IMG/VR virus record: IMGVR_UViG_3300046750_000065
Location: 1-24,150 of that record
Direction: 5' to 3' (one strand)
Length of the DNA: 24,150 bases
Source: a virus
Part shown: in pieces, positions 3,667-15,195 of the stretch
Position numbering within the stretch: position 1 is the first letter of the stretch
Layout: each line of letters begins with the position of its first letter
Position numbers and translations under genes: made by a program
Notes under the pieces: generated by a model
The model's input: the letters and a program-made list of their open reading frames with translations, nothing else
Told to the model about the DNA's origin: nothing
Database searches by the model: none

Positions 3667-4938
3667 TTAAATAATCCTATAACTATTATCTGCTATACTT
3701 TGTGGAGCAGTTTGTCTAGTGTTAATTTCTTGTAGTCCAACAGCAAGGTAACGCATTGCATCACAAGCGTGTGAACTCCAATCATGTACAGGTTTTGATC
3801 TGAACATTCTATTCTTATCAATATACTTCCTGTGGTAATGTCTTAATGCATCTATTAACTTTTTGCAATGGTCTGTATCAATCCAGCATCTAGGCAAAGT
3901 CATTGTGGTTGCGTGTATGCCATCCTCTAGTGGAATTTTTGGAACTACCTTGAACCTAATTCCTAATTGGTAGGCGACCTCTCTCCTGGTTTTGCCATTG
4001 CCAAAATCGGTAACTTCAATGTCGTGTGGTGCAAAGTGATCCTTGTAGACATACTCCTTTTCTTTAACAAGCTGGATATAGTAAGGTAAACCTTGACCTC
4101 TCTCTTCATGATAATCTATTATACTTATGCTTCTGCCTAACTGCTGATAAAATATAATAGCACTATGGTCGGAGACCCCGAGATCCCATGCGGTAGATAC
4201 TGGTAGTGATGGATCGTAGGGAACTCTGGATAATTGTTTTTGATCATCTAGTTTACCTATTACATCTCCATATACTGCACCTTCTATATTTGCTATCCAA
4301 TCGCACTCAAACTCCTGTAGGTACTTCTTATCACCCATAACTTCTTTTGCCTTAACCAACTCATCCTCATCTACAATCTTAGTATCTGATGCTTTAGCCT
4401 TGTAATTAAACCAATCTTCCGCACCTTGTGCGTGTTGGTACAACTCATAGAAGTTGTTGTTCATTCCCATTGGAGTTCCAATAAAGACACAATAACCTTT
4501 ACGATCTGATAATGCTGGTCTAATAATTTCTGGGAATAGCTTACTGTTGACGTTTGCATATTCATCAATCACACATCCGTCAAGGTAAATCCCTCTTAAT
4601 CCATCTGGAGATTCAGAGCCTAGCAAAGTGATACGAGAACCATTTGGTAAATCAACTCTAAGTTCTGTTTCGTTAAATTTAGTGTGGGGTATTTTGGCGG
4701 TGAACTGTTTCATGTAATCCCATGCAATAGACTTAGCTTGTTTGAAGGTTGGAGCAATGTAAGCAAATCTTGGGTTCTTGAGTTTGGACAGTAATGCTGA
4801 CCTAATTAGGTGGTTGATCATACATACTGTCTTTCCAAATCTTCTGTGACAAACTAGCACATTCCATCTATGCTTATCTATTTGTCTATGTAAGTGAGCT
4901 TGGTGCTTCCTAGGTGTATAGGGTATCTTAATATCCAT
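3667..4938 (-). CDS. terL: Terminase large subunit
   Basis: This 423-aa packaging motor combines an N-terminal ATPase that pumps DNA into the procapsid with a C-terminal RNase H-fold nuclease that cuts the concatemer. The P-loop is CHRRFGKT (30-37), with the RR variant common in this terminase group. The Walker B segment is GCVIDEYA (121-128, D125-E126) and the coupling motif is IGTP (153-156). In the nuclease domain, AWDLGVSDHSA gives D252 and HACDAMRYLA gives D393, with further acidic residues around 275-310. Both domains look intact. The small subunit is not adjacent; a terminase-small-like gene lies about 4.7 kb away at 9612-10076 on the same strand. Confidence 0.97.
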   Translation of the reverse strand: MDIKIPYTPRKHQAHLHRQIDKHRWNVLVCHRRFGKTVCMINHLIRSALLSKLKNPRFAYIAPTFKQAKSIAWDYMKQFTAKIPHTKFNETELRVDLPNGSRITLLGSESPDGLRGIYLDGCVIDEYANVNSKLFPEIIRPALSDRKGYCVFIGTPMGMNNNFYELYQHAQGAEDWFNYKAKASDTKIVDEDELVKAKEVMGDKKYLQEFECDWIANIEGAVYGDVIGKLDDQKQLSRVPYDPSLPVSTAWDLGVSDHSAIIFYQQLGRSISIIDYHEERGQGLPYYIQLVKEKEYVYKDHFAPHDIEVTDFGNGKTRREVAYQLGIRFKVVPKIPLEDGIHATTMTLPRCWIDTDHCKKLIDALRHYHRKYIDKNRMFRSKPVHDWSSHACDAMRYLAVGLQEINTRQTAPQSIADNSYRII

Positions 4939-4940
4939 AT

Positions 4941-5141
4941 CTAGTGAATTGATTTACTGTGATTATCTCCATCAAAAGGTATGTATTCAAATCCTAGCTT
5001 CATCATAATGTAAGATGTAAATAGTTCTGCAGACTCATTGTTAGGCATACCAAAGAATTTAATTACTACATTGTTGGTTTTTTCTTCAATAAAGCAAACA
5101 CAATCTAAATCTTCTGATGAAAAATAGTTCATATACCACAT
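4941..5141 (-). CDS. Small protein at the head of the packaging operon
   Basis: This 66-aa ORF is the first gene of the leftward packaging/head operon, ending 2 nt before the large terminase start. The first ATG is at 5141 and a second in-frame ATG is at 5132; neither has a clear Shine-Dalgarno. It has a beta-like core (CVCFIEEKTNNVVIKFFGM) followed by a helix (ESAELFTSYIMMKLGFEYIP). The alternating hydrophobic strand and helix suggest a small alpha/beta fold. I associate similar short proteins with the gene before terminase in pelagiphages. Function is unknown. Confidence 0.65.
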   Translation of the reverse strand: MWYMNYFSSEDLDCVCFIEEKTNNVVIKFFGMPNNESAELFTSYIMMKLGFEYIPFDGDNHSKSIH

Positions 5142-5169: not shown

Positions 5170-5209
5170 AAAGCTGTGGGTGTGTATAAAGCTGTCTGTG
5201 TAAAGGTGT
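5170..5209 (+). repeat. Three short direct repeats AAAG(C/G)TGT
   Basis: AAAGCTGT occurs at 5170-5177 and 5188-5195, with AAAGGTGT at 5202-5209. The first two copies are each followed by a GTGT-containing tail. Spacings are 18 and 14 nt. They lie just upstream of the first packaging gene. Iterated short sites like these can be protein-binding sites, for example for a small terminase or an initiator, but none is shown. Confidence 0.5.
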
Positions 5210-5233
5210 CCTGAAGTTCGGTGTATATATATT

Positions 5234-5276
5234 AATAAAGAAGCGGGTGCGTTGGCGGGTATACCCCCTCTTTATT
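5234..5276 (+). repeat. G/C-rich imperfect inverted repeat next to the packaging genes
   Basis: The left arm AATAAAGA (5234-5241) pairs with TCTTTATT (5269-5276). Inside it, GCGGG partly pairs with the CCCCC run, leaving a loop that holds half of the perfect palindrome GGGTATACCC (5257-5266). This is one of the most G/C-rich spots in an otherwise very AT-rich region. On the plus strand the right arm runs into a TTTTT(A) stretch, so it could act as a terminator. A packaging or origin site is equally possible. Confidence 0.5.
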
Positions 5277-5331
5277 TTTAAAAAAAAGGCAAAATTACAA
5301 AGCAAAAATTATTATTAATCTATAAATTATT

Positions 5332-5963: not shown

Positions 5964-6731
5964 ATGACACTAAAAAAAACAAAGCCTACTTATCATGACT
6001 TAAAAAAGTTAATGTTTACAGACGGCAACCCAAAAACAGACAAAAACAAACATATAAAAGATTTAGATCAATATCTAATTAAGCGTTTAAATCTTGCACC
6101 GGCAAAAATATCCGGTTTCGAAACTTGTGCAAGTAGGTCCGAAGGTTGTACTGACGCTTGTTTGCATGAAGCCGGTAACCCGGTCCATATGCCACAAAAA
6201 ACACTAGGCAGGGTTAATAGAACTTTATTATTGTTTAAAGATACGGCAAAATTCATATCAATGGCAACTAGGGAAATTCGAAACCATGAGATCTATTGCA
6301 AAAAACATAATTTAAAACCGGTCATTAGATTAAATACTACTAGCGATGTCATGTTTGAAAAGCAAAAATTCTCATTTATGCAAAACTTTCCAAACGTACA
6401 ATTTTACGACTACACAAAACATTTTAACAGAATGATTAAATATTTAAGGGGTCAATTACCGGCTAATTATCATTTGACATTTAGTCGTAATGAAAAAAAT
6501 GATTTCAACGCTACACAAGTTCTTAAAGCTGGTGGCAATGTTGCTGTAGTTTTTAGAGATAAACCACCGGCAACATATAAAGGTTTTAAAGTTATAAATG
6601 GCGATTTACATGATTTACGTTTTTTAGATAAAAAGAACGTGGTTGTAGGTCTTAAAGAAAAATTAACTTTAAATGAAGATACCGGAAAATTAGAGAGAAA
6701 TTATTCCGGGTTTGTGGTTGATCTTAAATAA
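5964..6731 (+). CDS. GP88-family protein (putative cysteine-cluster protein)
   Basis: This 255-aa protein matches the pattern of the phage Gene product 88 family, whose function is unknown. Landmarks are LAPAKISGFETCASRSEGC (45-62), then TDACLHEAG, giving three cysteines C55-x6-C62-x3-C66. Also present are VIRLNTTSDVMFE (120-132), NVQFYDYTKHFNRM (144-157), NYHLTFSRNE and NGDLHDLRFLD. The layout of an N-terminal Cys triad followed by RLN..SD, FYDYTK and LTFS strands resembles radical-SAM-like barrels (as in the phage Gp37/Gp68 family). A metal or Fe-S centre is possible but unproven, and the spacing is not the classic CX3CX2C. The ATG follows AAAAAGGAAAAT. The gene has nine CCGG tetramers, unlike its surroundings, which hints at separate ancestry. 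Confidence 0.82.
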   Translation: MTLKKTKPTYHDLKKLMFTDGNPKTDKNKHIKDLDQYLIKRLNLAPAKISGFETCASRSEGCTDACLHEAGNPVHMPQKTLGRVNRTLLLFKDTAKFISMATREIRNHEIYCKKHNLKPVIRLNTTSDVMFEKQKFSFMQNFPNVQFYDYTKHFNRMIKYLRGQLPANYHLTFSRNEKNDFNATQVLKAGGNVAVVFRDKPPATYKGFKVINGDLHDLRFLDKKNVVVGLKEKLTLNEDTGKLERNYSGFVVDLK

Positions 6732-9012: not shown

Positions 9013-9615
9013 ATGGGTGTCAAAATTTACTTGGCACTCATAAAAAATATTATGCCAGAAAGTTTAGAACTAAAAGAAATTTTTATTTACTTTGTAATTA
9101 ATAAAAAATCTAAAAAGATTGTTTATATAGGAGAAAGTCAAAATGGAAGATCAAGAGTACAGTTAAGAAGATTTGATGAAAGAGTTTGTGATGTTAAGGT
9201 AATTACATCTAAGAAAATAAAATGTTTAGAAAATTTTTATTTCAGAAGATATTATGAGGCAAGGTGGATATATAAATTTAAACCAGAATATAATAAACAA
9301 ATTAATACACCACCTAATCTAAATACTTTCTTAATGAAAATGTTTTTATGGAATGAGAACCCTCAAGCAGATTGGATAGTTCCTTTTTCACAAAATTGTC
9401 CATTCAAATGTAAGTTTTTAAATCACATACAAAAACAAAATAAATATATTTACAATGATTATTCAAGGGTTTGGAATGAAATTGATTTAGATAAACAGCT
9501 TTTTATTAATGGTAAAAAAGCATTTGATTATATATTAAACAATAAAATTGAAAAAACTTTAGGAACAAAAACTAGAAAAACATTTAGAAAAAGAACAGAA
9601 AAATTACACAATTAA
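9013..9615 (+). CDS. GIY-YIG-like nuclease domain protein
   Basis: This is a 200-aa protein. Residues about 24-97 look like a GIY-YIG fold: IYFVINKKSKKIVYIGESQN carries the first tyrosine (Y26) and the YIG (Y38-G40). R46/R48 follow on the next helix, and E82 lies in YYEARWIYKFKPEYN, ending in the typical kPxYN (N94). Such domains nick or cut DNA and are common as homing or free-standing phage endonucleases. The C-terminal ~100 residues are unrecognised and contain two cysteines (CPFKC). The start could also be the ATG at 9052. The stop codon overlaps the small terminase stop of the opposite strand in a shared TTAA, so the two genes converge with no terminator gap. Confidence 0.68.
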   Translation: MGVKIYLALIKNIMPESLELKEIFIYFVINKKSKKIVYIGESQNGRSRVQLRRFDERVCDVKVITSKKIKCLENFYFRRYYEARWIYKFKPEYNKQINTPPNLNTFLMKMFLWNENPQADWIVPFSQNCPFKCKFLNHIQKQNKYIYNDYSRVWNEIDLDKQLFINGKKAFDYILNNKIEKTLGTKTRKTFRKRTEKLHN

Positions 9616-10076
9616 TCTTTAACATCTTCAGCAGTTACATCAATCAAATCATCTTGATTATCTTCCCAAGAAATTTTTATACTTTGATCTGTCTTAACAT
9701 TTTGTACTTTGTTATCAGAATAAAGATCAGTTAATTTATTAGCAAGGAAAGTTATAAATTTAGTTTTCTCTCTTATCCACAAGATAGCATTTGGATCTTC
9801 TATTTCTTGATACTTAAAGACTTGCAGTAGTTTATCAATAAGAGTTTGAACTCCATACTTTCTAGCTTCCGTTATTTTTATTTCTAATTCTGGATTTTTT
9901 TTTAAGTACGCATAAAACTTCATCAAGCTGAACGGATATTCCTTTGGGTCCTCCAGAATTTCGGTAAGGGTTTTTCCATTTGCTAGTTGCTCTAATATTG
10001 TATCTACTTGGTTTGTTGTTATCAATTCCTGGTTTGATTTTTTGGTAGTAATATTCTTTGAGTTTTTCGTTATCAT
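9612..10076 (-). CDS. terS: Terminase small subunit-like protein (Sf6 type)
   Basis: The product is 154 aa. The N-terminal part has a helix-turn-helix pattern (QVDTILEQLANGKTLTEIL, then SLMKFYAYLKKNPELEIKITEAR, residues 23-72). The C-terminal half has ILWIREKTKFITFLANKLTDLYSD, like the R-x-k-x-x-x-x-W-L-A-x-K-L-x-x-x-Y-G-(D) stretch of Sf6/P22-group small terminases. These bind the packaging start site and present DNA to the large subunit. The match is by motif only. It lies 4.7 kb from the large subunit. The ATG at 10076 has no recognisable Shine-Dalgarno and sits 215 nt inside the preceding gene, so start and expression mode are uncertain. Confidence 0.72.
   Translation of the reverse strand: MITKNSKNITTKKSNQELITTNQVDTILEQLANGKTLTEILEDPKEYPFSLMKFYAYLKKNPELEIKITEARKYGVQTLIDKLLQVFKYQEIEDPNAILWIREKTKFITFLANKLTDLYSDNKVQNVKTDQSIKISWEDNQDDLIDVTAEDVKD
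9773..9781 (+). other. Exact DnaA-box sequence TTATCCACA inside the small terminase gene
   Basis: TTATCCACA, the strict DnaA box, occurs once on the plus strand within the coding sequence for the small terminase. It could be a binding site for host DnaA or for the phage DnaA-like protein. A single 9-mer is also expected by chance at a modest rate in a window this size, so this is a low-confidence entry. Confidence 0.25.
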
Positions 10077-10322: not shown

Positions 10323-10359
10323 GTTTACTGAATTTATGAAGTAAACCTGGCATTTACTT
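10323..10359 (-). promoter_or_regulatory. Clustered GTAAA inverted repeats (possible operator)
   Basis: GTTTAC (10323-10328) and GTAAAC (10341-10346) form one inverted repeat. AAGTAAA (10339-10345) and TTTACTT (10353-10359) form a perfect 7-bp pair around the loop CCTGGCA. They lie between the winged-helix gene and the HGG-type gene and overlap the winged-helix stop codon. They could be an operator for the neighbouring regulator or an RNA hairpin tuning expression of the two downstream genes. No poly-T follows, so it is not a typical terminator. Confidence 0.4.
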
Positions 10360-11028
10360 ACTTTCCCAGGGTTTAATCCCATTACGAATATTATATGCCT
10401 TTTTTTCTTTGTATCTATGATTTGTTTCTTTCTTTATTTTGGACAATGCCGACAATATTTTATCAGCATTTACATATGTTGCACTCTTCTCTCTCTCATT
10501 ATCTTGTTTACGTTCAATAGCTAGTTTGCATAAATAGATATTAGTTTTATCTTCTTTTAAATCTTCAATAGGGAGCTTAGATAATTCATCTAATATCTTC
10601 TCCCTATCCCCTGCAAAACTCTTAACTATTTTACCTATAGTATTAATGGATAATGTTTCTTTAAATGTAGTCGTAATACGGCTATCTGGTGTCGATGAGA
10701 CGGCTATCTGGGTTGGCTCGTAAAGTTTTTCAGCTCTTAAAAATACTTCATTAACAATATAAGTTTTACCAGATCGACCGCGGATAGATTTAATAATATT
10801 TAATTTATTTAAAGTTTCCAAACACTCTTTGATTGTAGTTCGGCAAAGTCCGGTGTCTTTATGGATTGTTTCATGCCTTAGTCCTGCCTTATATCCATTT
10901 TTCTTCCAAGCATATTTCATTACAGATAAGAATACATTTAAACAATAAGACTTCTTAACTCCGTCAATAATATCTAAGTGGTGGTATAGTTTATAGGTAA
11001 TATGTAAAAATCCCCTAGATGTATTCAT
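10354..11028 (-). CDS. Winged-helix DNA-binding protein (RepA-like/regulator)
   Basis: The product is 224 aa. Residues about 1-95 look like a winged helix: FLHITYKLYHHLDIIDGVKK, FLSVMKYAWKKNGYKAGLRH, ETIHKDTGLCRTTIKECLETLNKLNIIKSIRGRSGKTY. That is, a helix, a recognition helix around T75 and a GRSGK wing. This is the layout of phage replication-initiator and MarR/helix_turn_helix_36-type proteins. The remaining ~120 residues are helical and charged, without a recognised domain. It is ATGA-coupled to the nuclease-like gene before it. It could start replication or regulate the small divergent operons; the sequence does not decide. Confidence 0.68.
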   Translation of the reverse strand: MNTSRGFLHITYKLYHHLDIIDGVKKSYCLNVFLSVMKYAWKKNGYKAGLRHETIHKDTGLCRTTIKECLETLNKLNIIKSIRGRSGKTYIVNEVFLRAEKLYEPTQIAVSSTPDSRITTTFKETLSINTIGKIVKSFAGDREKILDELSKLPIEDLKEDKTNIYLCKLAIERKQDNEREKSATYVNADKILSALSKIKKETNHRYKEKKAYNIRNGIKPWESK

Positions 11029-12080: not shown

Positions 12081-12998
12081 ATGGAAAACGAAAAAATACA
12101 AAAAGCATTTTCAATATTTAATGGTGGAGAAGGATTAGATCATTGGTCTTACTCATCAACATCAACACCCTTTGCAAAAAATATTCTTGGTTATAGTTTC
12201 CCTCAAGAAGTTAGAAGGAAGTTTCCATTTAGATACAAAGCAAACTTTGGCAACCTAGTTAACAATGTGGTCCAAAAACAAATAGCAGATGTAATTTATA
12301 AAACCAAAACAATTAAAGAGACAGAGTGGGATCGAAACTTTAATGTTTGTTTTAAAGCTGAACAAGAAGCAATTAATAAGAACCCACCAGTAGATGCTAA
12401 AGATAAGTTCGGCAGAGAATCTATGATTAAGTTTGCGATGGATTGTATTCCTATTACAAAAAAAGTTGTGCAAGAAATTATAGGTAAAGATAAATTAGTT
12501 TGCGAAAGATACGTTGAACTAAAAGAGTTTGACATGATCAAGCCTGTCATTGGTCGTATCGATTATGAAACTAAAACAAAATTTATAGAATTAAAAACTA
12601 AGCCACCTAATTTAAGGAAGGTTAAAGGTAAAGAAGATTGGAACATGATCACTCAAGATTTACCTACAGAGCCTACGATTGAAAACCTTACACAAACTTC
12701 GTTCTACTATATGGCAACAAAGAAGATACCATACTTGGTATATGTTAATGACAAAGACTATGTCATCTTTGATAAGAGCCATGAGTTGATGAAGGCAGAT
12801 CACTTGCAATATCTTTATAACAAAATGATTGATAAGATTTTGTTGTGGGAAAAGATGATTATGTTTTGTGAGGGTAGCATAGAGAAGTTAGCTTTAATGT
12901 GTGAGCCACCAGACTTAAATCATTTCTTTTACTATAAAGATTTAGCAGATGAACAAAAACAACTAATCAATAAACTATGGGGTATTAAATATGAGTAG
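12081..12998 (+). CDS. RecB-type PD-(D/E)XK exonuclease-like protein
   Basis: This 305-aa protein has a nuclease core: VIGRIDYE (156-163, D161), KFIELKTK (167-174, E170-x-K172) and TQTSFYYMATKK (204-215), where Q205-x-x-x-Y209 is the RecB motif III pattern. All expected catalytic residues are present. Such nucleases chew duplex ends so that a recombinase can anneal the strands. The next gene encodes an ERF annealing protein, overlapping by 8 nt, which forms a typical two-gene phage recombination module. GGAAAGG lies before the start. The ~100 N-terminal residues before the core are family-specific. Confidence 0.88.
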   Translation: MENEKIQKAFSIFNGGEGLDHWSYSSTSTPFAKNILGYSFPQEVRRKFPFRYKANFGNLVNNVVQKQIADVIYKTKTIKETEWDRNFNVCFKAEQEAINKNPPVDAKDKFGRESMIKFAMDCIPITKKVVQEIIGKDKLVCERYVELKEFDMIKPVIGRIDYETKTKFIELKTKPPNLRKVKGKEDWNMITQDLPTEPTIENLTQTSFYYMATKKIPYLVYVNDKDYVIFDKSHELMKADHLQYLYNKMIDKILLWEKMIMFCEGSIEKLALMCEPPDLNHFFYYKDLADEQKQLINKLWGIKYE

Positions 12999-13665
12999 CG
13001 AAAACAACAACGTATATAGAATGGGAAATAACAATATGACAAACATACATAAGAAGTTACACAACGCTTGTAATCATGCAAGTGGTGTAAGAAAAGCAAG
13101 TAAGGTTAAAGGTATGCCTTTTAATCCTTTACTTCATGATGATGTACAAAGAGTTGCAATGGAAGCTCTATTAAAAAATAATTTATATCCAACCTGCAAT
13201 TACATTACAGATGTGACAGATAAATTTGTCGTAGTGACTTGTACTATGAGAATAACTGACATTGATGATCCAGCAAGTTTTGTTGTGATTGACGGATGTA
13301 CTGCCATGGGTGGTTTAGATAAATACGGAACGGGTCAAGCAATGTCATACAGTAAAAAGTATGCGTTCTTAAATGCACTCAATCTAAAAACAGGAATGGA
13401 TTTAGAAGATGGTTATAATGCAAAACCATTTGAGCAAAATTCTGTGGAGCAATCTACAGAACCTACCTATCTTGATGATGAGATAGATGTAGAAGAGATC
13501 ATTAACAGGATCGAACAAACTAAAACTGAAAAACAATTAGCTTCGGTTAAAAGTCAAGTGAGATCAGTTGTTAATCATCTCAAAAATAATAACTTCAAAG
13601 CATACGAACAGATCAGAGATGTAAGTAGTAAGCATGAAGTCAAACTAACAAATAATCAACAGTAG
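12991..13665 (+). CDS. erf: ERF-family single-strand annealing protein
   Basis: This 224-aa protein fits the ERF annealing family. The N-terminal half runs from KLHNACNHASGVRKASK through VTCTMRITDIDDPAS. The family signature is at 111-124: KYGTGQAMSYSKKY, the G-x-G-x-A-x-(S/T)-Y-x-x-(R/K)-Y segment, followed by FLNALNLKTGMDLEDG. The C-terminal ~75 residues are acidic then basic and helical. It would anneal single strands made by the upstream nuclease, aiding recombination-dependent replication and concatemer formation. The ATG at 12991 (GGGG 5 nt upstream) lies within the nuclease gene's last codons. Confidence 0.88.
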   Translation: MSSENNNVYRMGNNNMTNIHKKLHNACNHASGVRKASKVKGMPFNPLLHDDVQRVAMEALLKNNLYPTCNYITDVTDKFVVVTCTMRITDIDDPASFVVIDGCTAMGGLDKYGTGQAMSYSKKYAFLNALNLKTGMDLEDGYNAKPFEQNSVEQSTEPTYLDDEIDVEEIINRIEQTKTEKQLASVKSQVRSVVNHLKNNNFKAYEQIRDVSSKHEVKLTNNQQ

Positions 13666-13687: not shown

Positions 13688-13990
13688 ATGGATAATCAAT
13701 CCGACAAGATATACATCAACCTAACCAAGAATAAAGATTGGAAGTCTCCAACAGATAAACTTCCAGTTTATATTGGTCCTAAAAATATGAAACATCCAGA
13801 TAAGAACTGGACTATTGGGGTCAATATTGGTGGCAAGTGGTATAACCAAGCTGCGTTCCCGTCAAAAGATCAAGACGGCAATGTCAAGGAAGGAGAATTG
13901 ACAGTAATTTTAACACCGAGTGGAGCAGGAGCAAGTAAAAATGCCTTTGCAAAACCAAGTGAAGGTGCTAATAACGAATATACCTTTTAA
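13688..13990 (+). CDS. Beta-rich protein next to the annealing gene, 100 aa
   Basis: AAGGAG precedes the ATG by 6 nt. The sequence has KLPVYIGPKNMKHPDKNWTI, GVNIGGKWYNQAAFPSKDQD and GELTVILTPSG, suggesting a small beta fold with Gly turns, ending in a Gly/Asn-rich tail closing with EYTF. I do not recognise the family. A single-strand DNA-binding role would fit the place (right after ERF) and the aromatic C-terminus, but the tail lacks the usual acidic -DDxxPF. This is a guess only. Confidence 0.72.
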   Translation: MDNQSDKIYINLTKNKDWKSPTDKLPVYIGPKNMKHPDKNWTIGVNIGGKWYNQAAFPSKDQDGNVKEGELTVILTPSGAGASKNAFAKPSEGANNEYTF

Positions 13991-14073: not shown

Positions 14074-14283
14074 ATGACAGATAATATAAAAGAACCATCA
14101 CACTACACAGCAAACAAGATTGAACCTATTGATTTTATAATTAAAAATGAATTTGATTTTTGTGAAGGCAATGTAATTAAGTATATTTCTAGATACAAAA
14201 GAAAAAATGGTATCGAGGATCTTAAAAAAGCTAAACAGTATATAGATTTTTTGATCAAAAAAGAAGTTGAAAAAACTAAATAA
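14074..14283 (+). CDS. DUF3310-like protein
   Basis: The 69-aa protein starts with EPSHYTANKIEPIDFIIKNE and continues CEGNVIKYISRYKRKNGIED, then LKKAKQYIDFLIKKE. This is the full DUF3310 pattern: P-x-H-Y, IEpiDfI, GNviKYi-x-R-(y/h)-K-x-K-x-G-x-e-DLkKA-x-x-Yl-x-x-l. The family is very common in phages and sometimes described as nucleotide-kinase related, but its function is not established. It lies in the replication operon, 2 nt before the next gene. Confidence 0.9.
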   Translation: MTDNIKEPSHYTANKIEPIDFIIKNEFDFCEGNVIKYISRYKRKNGIEDLKKAKQYIDFLIKKEVEKTK

Positions 14284-14613: not shown

Positions 14614-14661
14614 TCATTAACGTAATGATTGAAAAAAAAGAAAGGAAACTGTAGGGGATCT

Positions 14662-15195
14662 ATGACCATAAATGTAAGTCAACACTATAATAAACACATA
14701 AAACACTTAGACCAAAACACATTTGTATACAAAGTTAAGAAAGCATTTTACCTTCTTACGAACCAAGAAGAAAGATTATATGAGGTAGGGTTCTCGGAAG
14801 GATTTTTATATGCTGCAAAACTTTTACAGAAACAATCTATTGATGATAGTAATAAGAAAATAATTGGAGTTGTTTACAAAAATGCAAACTTAAAAACTGT
14901 TAATACAATAGTAGATAAAGTTTGTGAAAAATATCTTGTAAGTAAACATGATGTGTTTGGTAAAGGTAGAACTAGAGATGTAGTTAGAACAAGAAGCATA
15001 CTTTATAATCTTTTACATGAAGAATATAATGTAAGTATCTCGTCTATTGGAAGAGTGTTTGGTCAAGATCACACTACAGTTTTACATTCACTAAACAATA
15101 AACAAAACAAGTCTAGATATTGGGGTAGCGAATATTCTATCTGGAAAGAGTATGAAAATTTAAAAACAGAATTGTTGCCAATAACTACTTCTTAA
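14662..15195 (+). CDS. DnaA domain IV-like DNA-binding protein
   Basis: The start is the ATG at 14662, with AGGGGA 4 nt upstream, giving 177 aa; a TTG at 14629 is less likely. Residues 75-150 form a DnaA C-terminal-type helix-turn-helix: KNANLKTVNTIVDKVCEKYL, then DVFGKGRTRDVVRTRSILYN, and IGRVFGQDHTTVLHS (129-143), very close to the DnaA signature G-x-x-F-(G/N)-x-(R/Q)-D-H-(T/S)-T-V-x-x-(A/S). No AAA+ ATPase domain is present, and the N-terminal ~70 residues (FYLLTNQEERLYEVGFSEGF) are different. In DnaA this domain reads DnaA boxes, so this protein could bind such sites or compete with host DnaA. It ends convergently, overlapping the opposite gene by 11 nt. Confidence 0.82.
   Translation: MTINVSQHYNKHIKHLDQNTFVYKVKKAFYLLTNQEERLYEVGFSEGFLYAAKLLQKQSIDDSNKKIIGVVYKNANLKTVNTIVDKVCEKYLVSKHDVFGKGRTRDVVRTRSILYNLLHEEYNVSISSIGRVFGQDHTTVLHSLNNKQNKSRYWGSEYSIWKEYENLKTELLPITTS

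Follow-up and report, generated by a model that had tools for sequence, protein, structure and literature searches.

SAR11 bacteria, the commonest bacteria of the sea, are the hosts of the HTVC010P-type phages. DnaA is listed as one of the proteins that every HTVC010P-related genome contains (PMC6811365), and in most isolate records the corresponding gene is labelled "DNA replication initiation (DnaA)", "DnaA-like" or "Bac_DnaA_C". The closest described counterparts of the protein analysed here are the orthologues HTVC024P gp26, Skadi-1 gene 28 and Greip gp42, which share 38–72% identity with it over 77–100% of the length and are encoded in the same operon. No material difference distinguishes it from the DnaA-like proteins of HTVC010P-type phages and, as these relatives are already annotated as DnaA or Bac_DnaA_C, it does not represent a new kind of protein. 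Stand-alone DnaA C-terminal proteins are also common in uncultured Caudovirales (tailed phages). Those found in BFVD and in PHROG 27829 ("DnaA-like replication initiation protein") are likewise short and consist of domain IV without AAA+; they align with the present protein mainly over domain IV and differ in their N-terminal parts. Domain IV of bacterial DnaA (1j1v, 3pvp) has the fold, the HTH signature and the main DNA-contact residues in common with the phage protein, whereas the latter shows no recognisable domain I, II or III, has replaced P423/R432 and possesses another N-terminal module. A further reference system is phage lambda, whose O protein binds iterons located mid-way in its own gene (PMC3985674). 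For Skadi-1, genes for a DNA polymerase, a helicase and a primase of its own are reported to be absent, and a "helicase loader" is named but not linked to an origin (PMC10504331).

The window, i.e. the whole stretch of 24,150 nucleotides analysed, represents part (24 kb) of the genome of an HTVC010P-type pelagiphage. Its recombination operon and the DnaA-like gene comprise the following features:

12081–12998, plus strand: first gene of the recombination operon, "putative nuclease" in relatives, without a match in Pfam or PHROGs
12991–13665, plus strand: ERF-family single-strand annealing protein (Pfam ERF 4.2e-7, PHROG 1.1e-13)
14074–14283, plus strand: DUF3310 protein of the same operon, from a family profile match
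14662–15195, plus strand: stand-alone DnaA domain-IV protein of 177 amino acids, with an ATG at 14662 and a stop codon ending at 15195
14662–14886, plus strand: N-terminal phage-specific module (residues 1–75), predicted to be helical at residues 5–16 and 34–57
14893–15189, plus strand: complete DnaA domain IV including the C-terminal helix (residues ca. 78–176), from Pfam and model superposition
15049–15090, plus strand: DnaA signature GRVFGQDHTTVLHS (residues 130–143)

The Pfam family Bac_DnaA_C (PF08299) matches residues 81–145 of the DnaA-like protein with E = 5.6e-17 and 62 bits (63.3 bits in a second run), which exceeds the curated cut-off of 31.5 bits, and the DNA-binding domains of E. 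coli and M. tuberculosis DnaA are the top matches of a sequence search in the PDB. The AlphaFold2 model has a mean pLDDT of 75.7, with mostly 82–90 for the blocks of domain IV and block means of 48–81 for the N-terminal module. Its residues 78–176 superimpose onto the DnaA-DNA structures of M. tuberculosis (3pvp; Z 13.4) and E. coli (1j1v; Z 12.8), and all structure matches are confined to residues 76–176. Because the superposition spans residues 78–176, domain IV is whole, the last helix included, and only the first ca. 75 residues are foreign; they match nothing in Pfam, PHROGs or NCBIfam. An AAA+ ATPase domain III was not detected in the protein, whose 177 residues are too short to accommodate one. 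The model for full-length DnaA (TIGR00362) covers the domain IV end only and scores 61.6 bits, below its cut-off of 343.9, and the 140–151-residue models NF004687 and NF004686 of NCBIfam match the same domain weakly, far under their curated cut-offs. The gene product is thus a complete DnaA domain IV without AAA+ behind an N-terminal module of no known family, and its identity with the full chromosomal replication initiator DnaA is excluded by the absence of AAA+. An earlier note on this DNA had described a stand-alone domain-IV protein with an unrelated N-terminus and no AAA+ domain at the end of a recombination operon; the Pfam match (5.6e-17), the Z scores of about 13 and the lack of a family match for the N-terminal part bear out the description of the protein, and the ERF annealing protein at 12991–13665 that of its genomic position.

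An in-frame TTG is present upstream at 14629, and the methionine encoded at 14662 is conserved in at least 90% of the relatives (37 aligned). Values of dN/dS between 0.06 and 0.29 against 13 relatives of 71–98% identity indicate that the protein is under purifying selection. Nineteen Pelagibacter phage records and numerous IMG/VR stretches contain orthologues, and in the isolates read the gene occupies a fixed place closing the nuclease/ERF operon; it belongs to the core gene set of the HTVC010P-type pelagiphages. The 100-residue protein encoded between the ERF and DUF3310 genes (13688–13990, plus strand) has no family match and might, judged by its position, be a single-strand-binding protein.

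Eight host DnaA proteins were recovered from SAR11, and three of them, together with E. coli DnaA, served as references for the residues facing the DNA in 37 phage relatives (E. coli numbering). R399, R405, R407, D433, H434, T435 and T436, whose roles are established from the structure of E. coli domain IV with DNA and of which R399, D433, H434, T435 and T436 read bases, are retained in all 37 phage relatives, as is the DHTT signature. Since the box-reading residues are conserved, the protein likely reads DnaA-box-like DNA. In every relative, P423 is replaced by S or T and R432 by Q, so that the binding specificity may have shifted, and the position of H439 is variable (H in 20, N in 10 and Y in 7 relatives). 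SAR11 host DnaA carries a canonical domain IV.

The label "DnaA" suggests an initiator acting at the origin, and the earlier note had considered the protein capable of recruiting the host replisome to a phage origin. The distribution of DnaA boxes does not back this reading. The proposed check for clusters in complete genomes was negative: in ten complete relative genomes and the window, neither a cluster above shuffled sequence nor an enrichment was detected, and boxes with at most one mismatch are even rarer than the Markov expectation in these 11 genomes (24 versus 47 expected in the window). When 6- to 8-mers were screened for clustering without bias, the top candidates were mostly coding repeats in structural genes, but the screen also led to repeats inside another gene of the window:

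10354–11028, minus strand: lambda-O-like replication initiator, "putative transcriptional regulator" in relatives
10700–10711, minus strand: iteron 1, CCAGATAGCCGT, candidate phage origin in the linker-coding part of the O-like gene
10678–10689, minus strand: iteron 2, CCAGATAGCCGT, 22 bp from iteron 1
10667–10674, minus strand: half-site ACGACTAC, in relatives an inverted copy of TAGCCGT (ACGGCTA)

In the model of the O-like protein, a winged helix at the N-terminus is followed by a disordered linker (residues ca. 102–128) and a helical C-terminal part. The PHROG "replication initiation O-like" matches 21 of 24 O-like proteins, and O-like or other replication initiator families are found for 20–21 of the 24; the match of the window's own protein is weak (0.0017), that of the best member 1.2e-6. 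The O-like profile found no sequence match in the PDB, and a fold search with the model returned generic winged-helix matches only. In most loci the best 14-bp repeat of the gene has a spacing of 22 bp and lies at codons 103–114; the same spacing recurs in 23 of 27 loci of another set, and the preference is absent in codon-shuffled O-like genes. Since 22 cannot be divided by 3, the copies are translated into different peptides, and the selection thus acts on the DNA. The inverted half-site often follows the iterons in relatives. The DnaA-like proteins of HTVC010P and Lederberg are only ca. 40–45% identical to that of the window, yet these phages have the same type of iteron and winged helix, which links the iteron to the O-like protein. 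The 19 Pelagibacter phage records with the DnaA-like gene also contain the O-like gene.

The product of 10354–11028 has the layout of a lambda-O-type initiator, with winged helix, linker, C-terminal domain and in-gene repeats; O and ori-lambda likewise combine a winged helix with a flexible linker and have repeated sites within the gene (PMC3985674). The arrangements differ in that lambda has four 19-bp repeats and the O-like genes a 22-bp spacing with mostly two to three copies; a P-like loader was not identified. The iterons are likely a phage origin in HTVC010P-type pelagiphages, where the O-like protein would bind the 22-bp iterons within its coding sequence and recruit host replication enzymes. 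With boxes unclustered and a separate initiator having iterons in its own gene, the origin reading for the DnaA-like protein is weakened; most likely, it is not by itself an origin-marking initiator, and this job belongs to the lambda-O-like protein. Within the operon of the O-like gene, the product of 9612–10076 (minus strand), a "putative DNA binding protein" in relatives, matches an Sf6-type terminase small subunit (Pfam PF20901, 3.8e-7); this candidate is located far from the large subunit gene at 3667–4938.

A single DnaA-box-like element, which the earlier note had not noticed, is conserved in its position, and it is found in front of the late genes:

5181–5189, minus strand: DnaA-box-like element TTATACACA, preceding the late (terminase) operon by ca. 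50 bp
4941–5141, minus strand: leading gene of the late operon, preceding that of the terminase large subunit (3667–4938)

A TTWTNCACA box is present at −35 to −110 in 43 of 61 non-redundant late loci, compared to a mean of 2.5 and a maximum of 7 after shuffling, a test which overstates the significance owing to the relatedness of the late-region sequences (three groups at 70% and 15 at 80% identity, with the exact box in 7 of the 15). In the 43 loci the box is always on the strand of the late operon, and its fifth base varies (A in 35, G in 7 and C in 1) as in true DnaA boxes. No other syntenic box was found except a codon-constrained match in the O-like gene. The late region is CA-rich, and one clade has degenerate sites only (TTATTCAAT); co-variation between the box and the DNA-reading residues was not seen. 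Consensus searches identified no promoter at the box, the matches being equal to chance. An interpretation of the box as a sigma-70 −10 element was rejected, as TTATAC fits but the variants TTTTGCACA, TTCTCCACA and TTATCCACA at the same place do not. Beside the box, upstream of the late operon, the region of ca. 5190–5330 contains the strongly conserved blocks CCCCYATACCCC, TATATATATACATGG and GGACTCGAGGACTCC, possibly a packaging site, a promoter or the site of a regulator. The gene at 5964–6731 (plus strand) encodes a GP88 family protein conserved in phages (Pfam PF17338, 1.3e-46; PHROG 1617).

As the O-like protein better explains the marking of the origin, a regulatory role is more likely for the DnaA-like protein, and on the grounds of sequence and models we tentatively favour an action at the late-region site. 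Domain IV would bind DnaA-box-like DNA, and the N-terminal module would take the place of the helicase-recruiting and ATPase domains and may contact the host RNA polymerase or another protein; made together with the recombination genes, the protein would regulate at the single conserved box upstream of the late operon. We infer both the direction of this regulation and the binding of the box by the DnaA-like protein rather than by host DnaA; against such a regulator, the SAR11 DnaA itself could bind the site. The full scenario, in which domain IV serves as a late-gene switch at one box and replication is left to the separate O-like protein at its in-gene iterons, is put forward as a rather doubtful proposal. 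A different target, also named in the earlier note, would be the host chromosome, where the protein, as an ATPase-less competitor, might occupy the SAR11 DnaA boxes and thereby block initiation or alter DnaA-regulated genes. Retention of the box-reading residues combined with the loss of AAA+ and apparently of domain I is the layout expected of a competitor, and the few DnaA boxes in the phage genomes would not titrate it. However, a search for oriC in eight partial SAR11 genomes gave no canonical tandem or inverted DnaA boxes except two isolated TTWTNCACA pairs, so that it located no host targets and is uninformative in this respect, and a pure competitor would have no need of a conserved N-terminal module; such a takeover of the host is considered unlikely.

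Just as unlikely appears a role as accessory replication factor, binding the late-region box or a shifted motif and helping the O-like initiator to open the DNA or to load host DnaB; in a variant, a second origin could reside in the late intergenic region. The protein is produced together with the recombination genes, the late region is rich in AT and contains TATATATATA as well as conserved blocks, lambda has DnaA sites near the O gene (PMC3985674), and these phages need to recruit host functions because they have no DNA polymerase, helicase or primase of their own (PMC10504331). On the other hand, a cluster of boxes exists nowhere in the genomes analysed, the late region having one or two only, the parts of DnaA for DNA opening and helicase recruitment seem to be missing, and the iterons are ca. 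5.5 kb apart from the late-region box. The exchanges of P423 to S or T and of R432 to Q in 37 of 37 relatives, and of H439 to N or Y in 17 of 37, are compatible with an ordinary phage transcription regulator whose DnaA-derived HTH has drifted to another target, the late-region box then belonging to host DnaA or being a packaging or promoter element. A DnaA_C-like domain of TnpA-REP relatives is reported not to be associated with DnaA boxes (PMC6006769), and other strongly conserved motifs are present in the late region. The principal base-reading residues are nevertheless invariant, and we judge such a drift to be distinctly improbable.

Despite the "DnaA" label, the evidence points to the O-like gene for the role of origin initiator, and a candidate pelagiphage origin has been hidden in a gene annotated as "putative transcriptional regulator". 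With the iterons of the O gene and the box of the late region, two short candidate DNA targets are available for addressing the start of replication and the switch to late genes. If the proposed regulatory role is true, one of the most abundant phage groups of the ocean would have converted the DNA-reading domain of DnaA to a late-gene switch.
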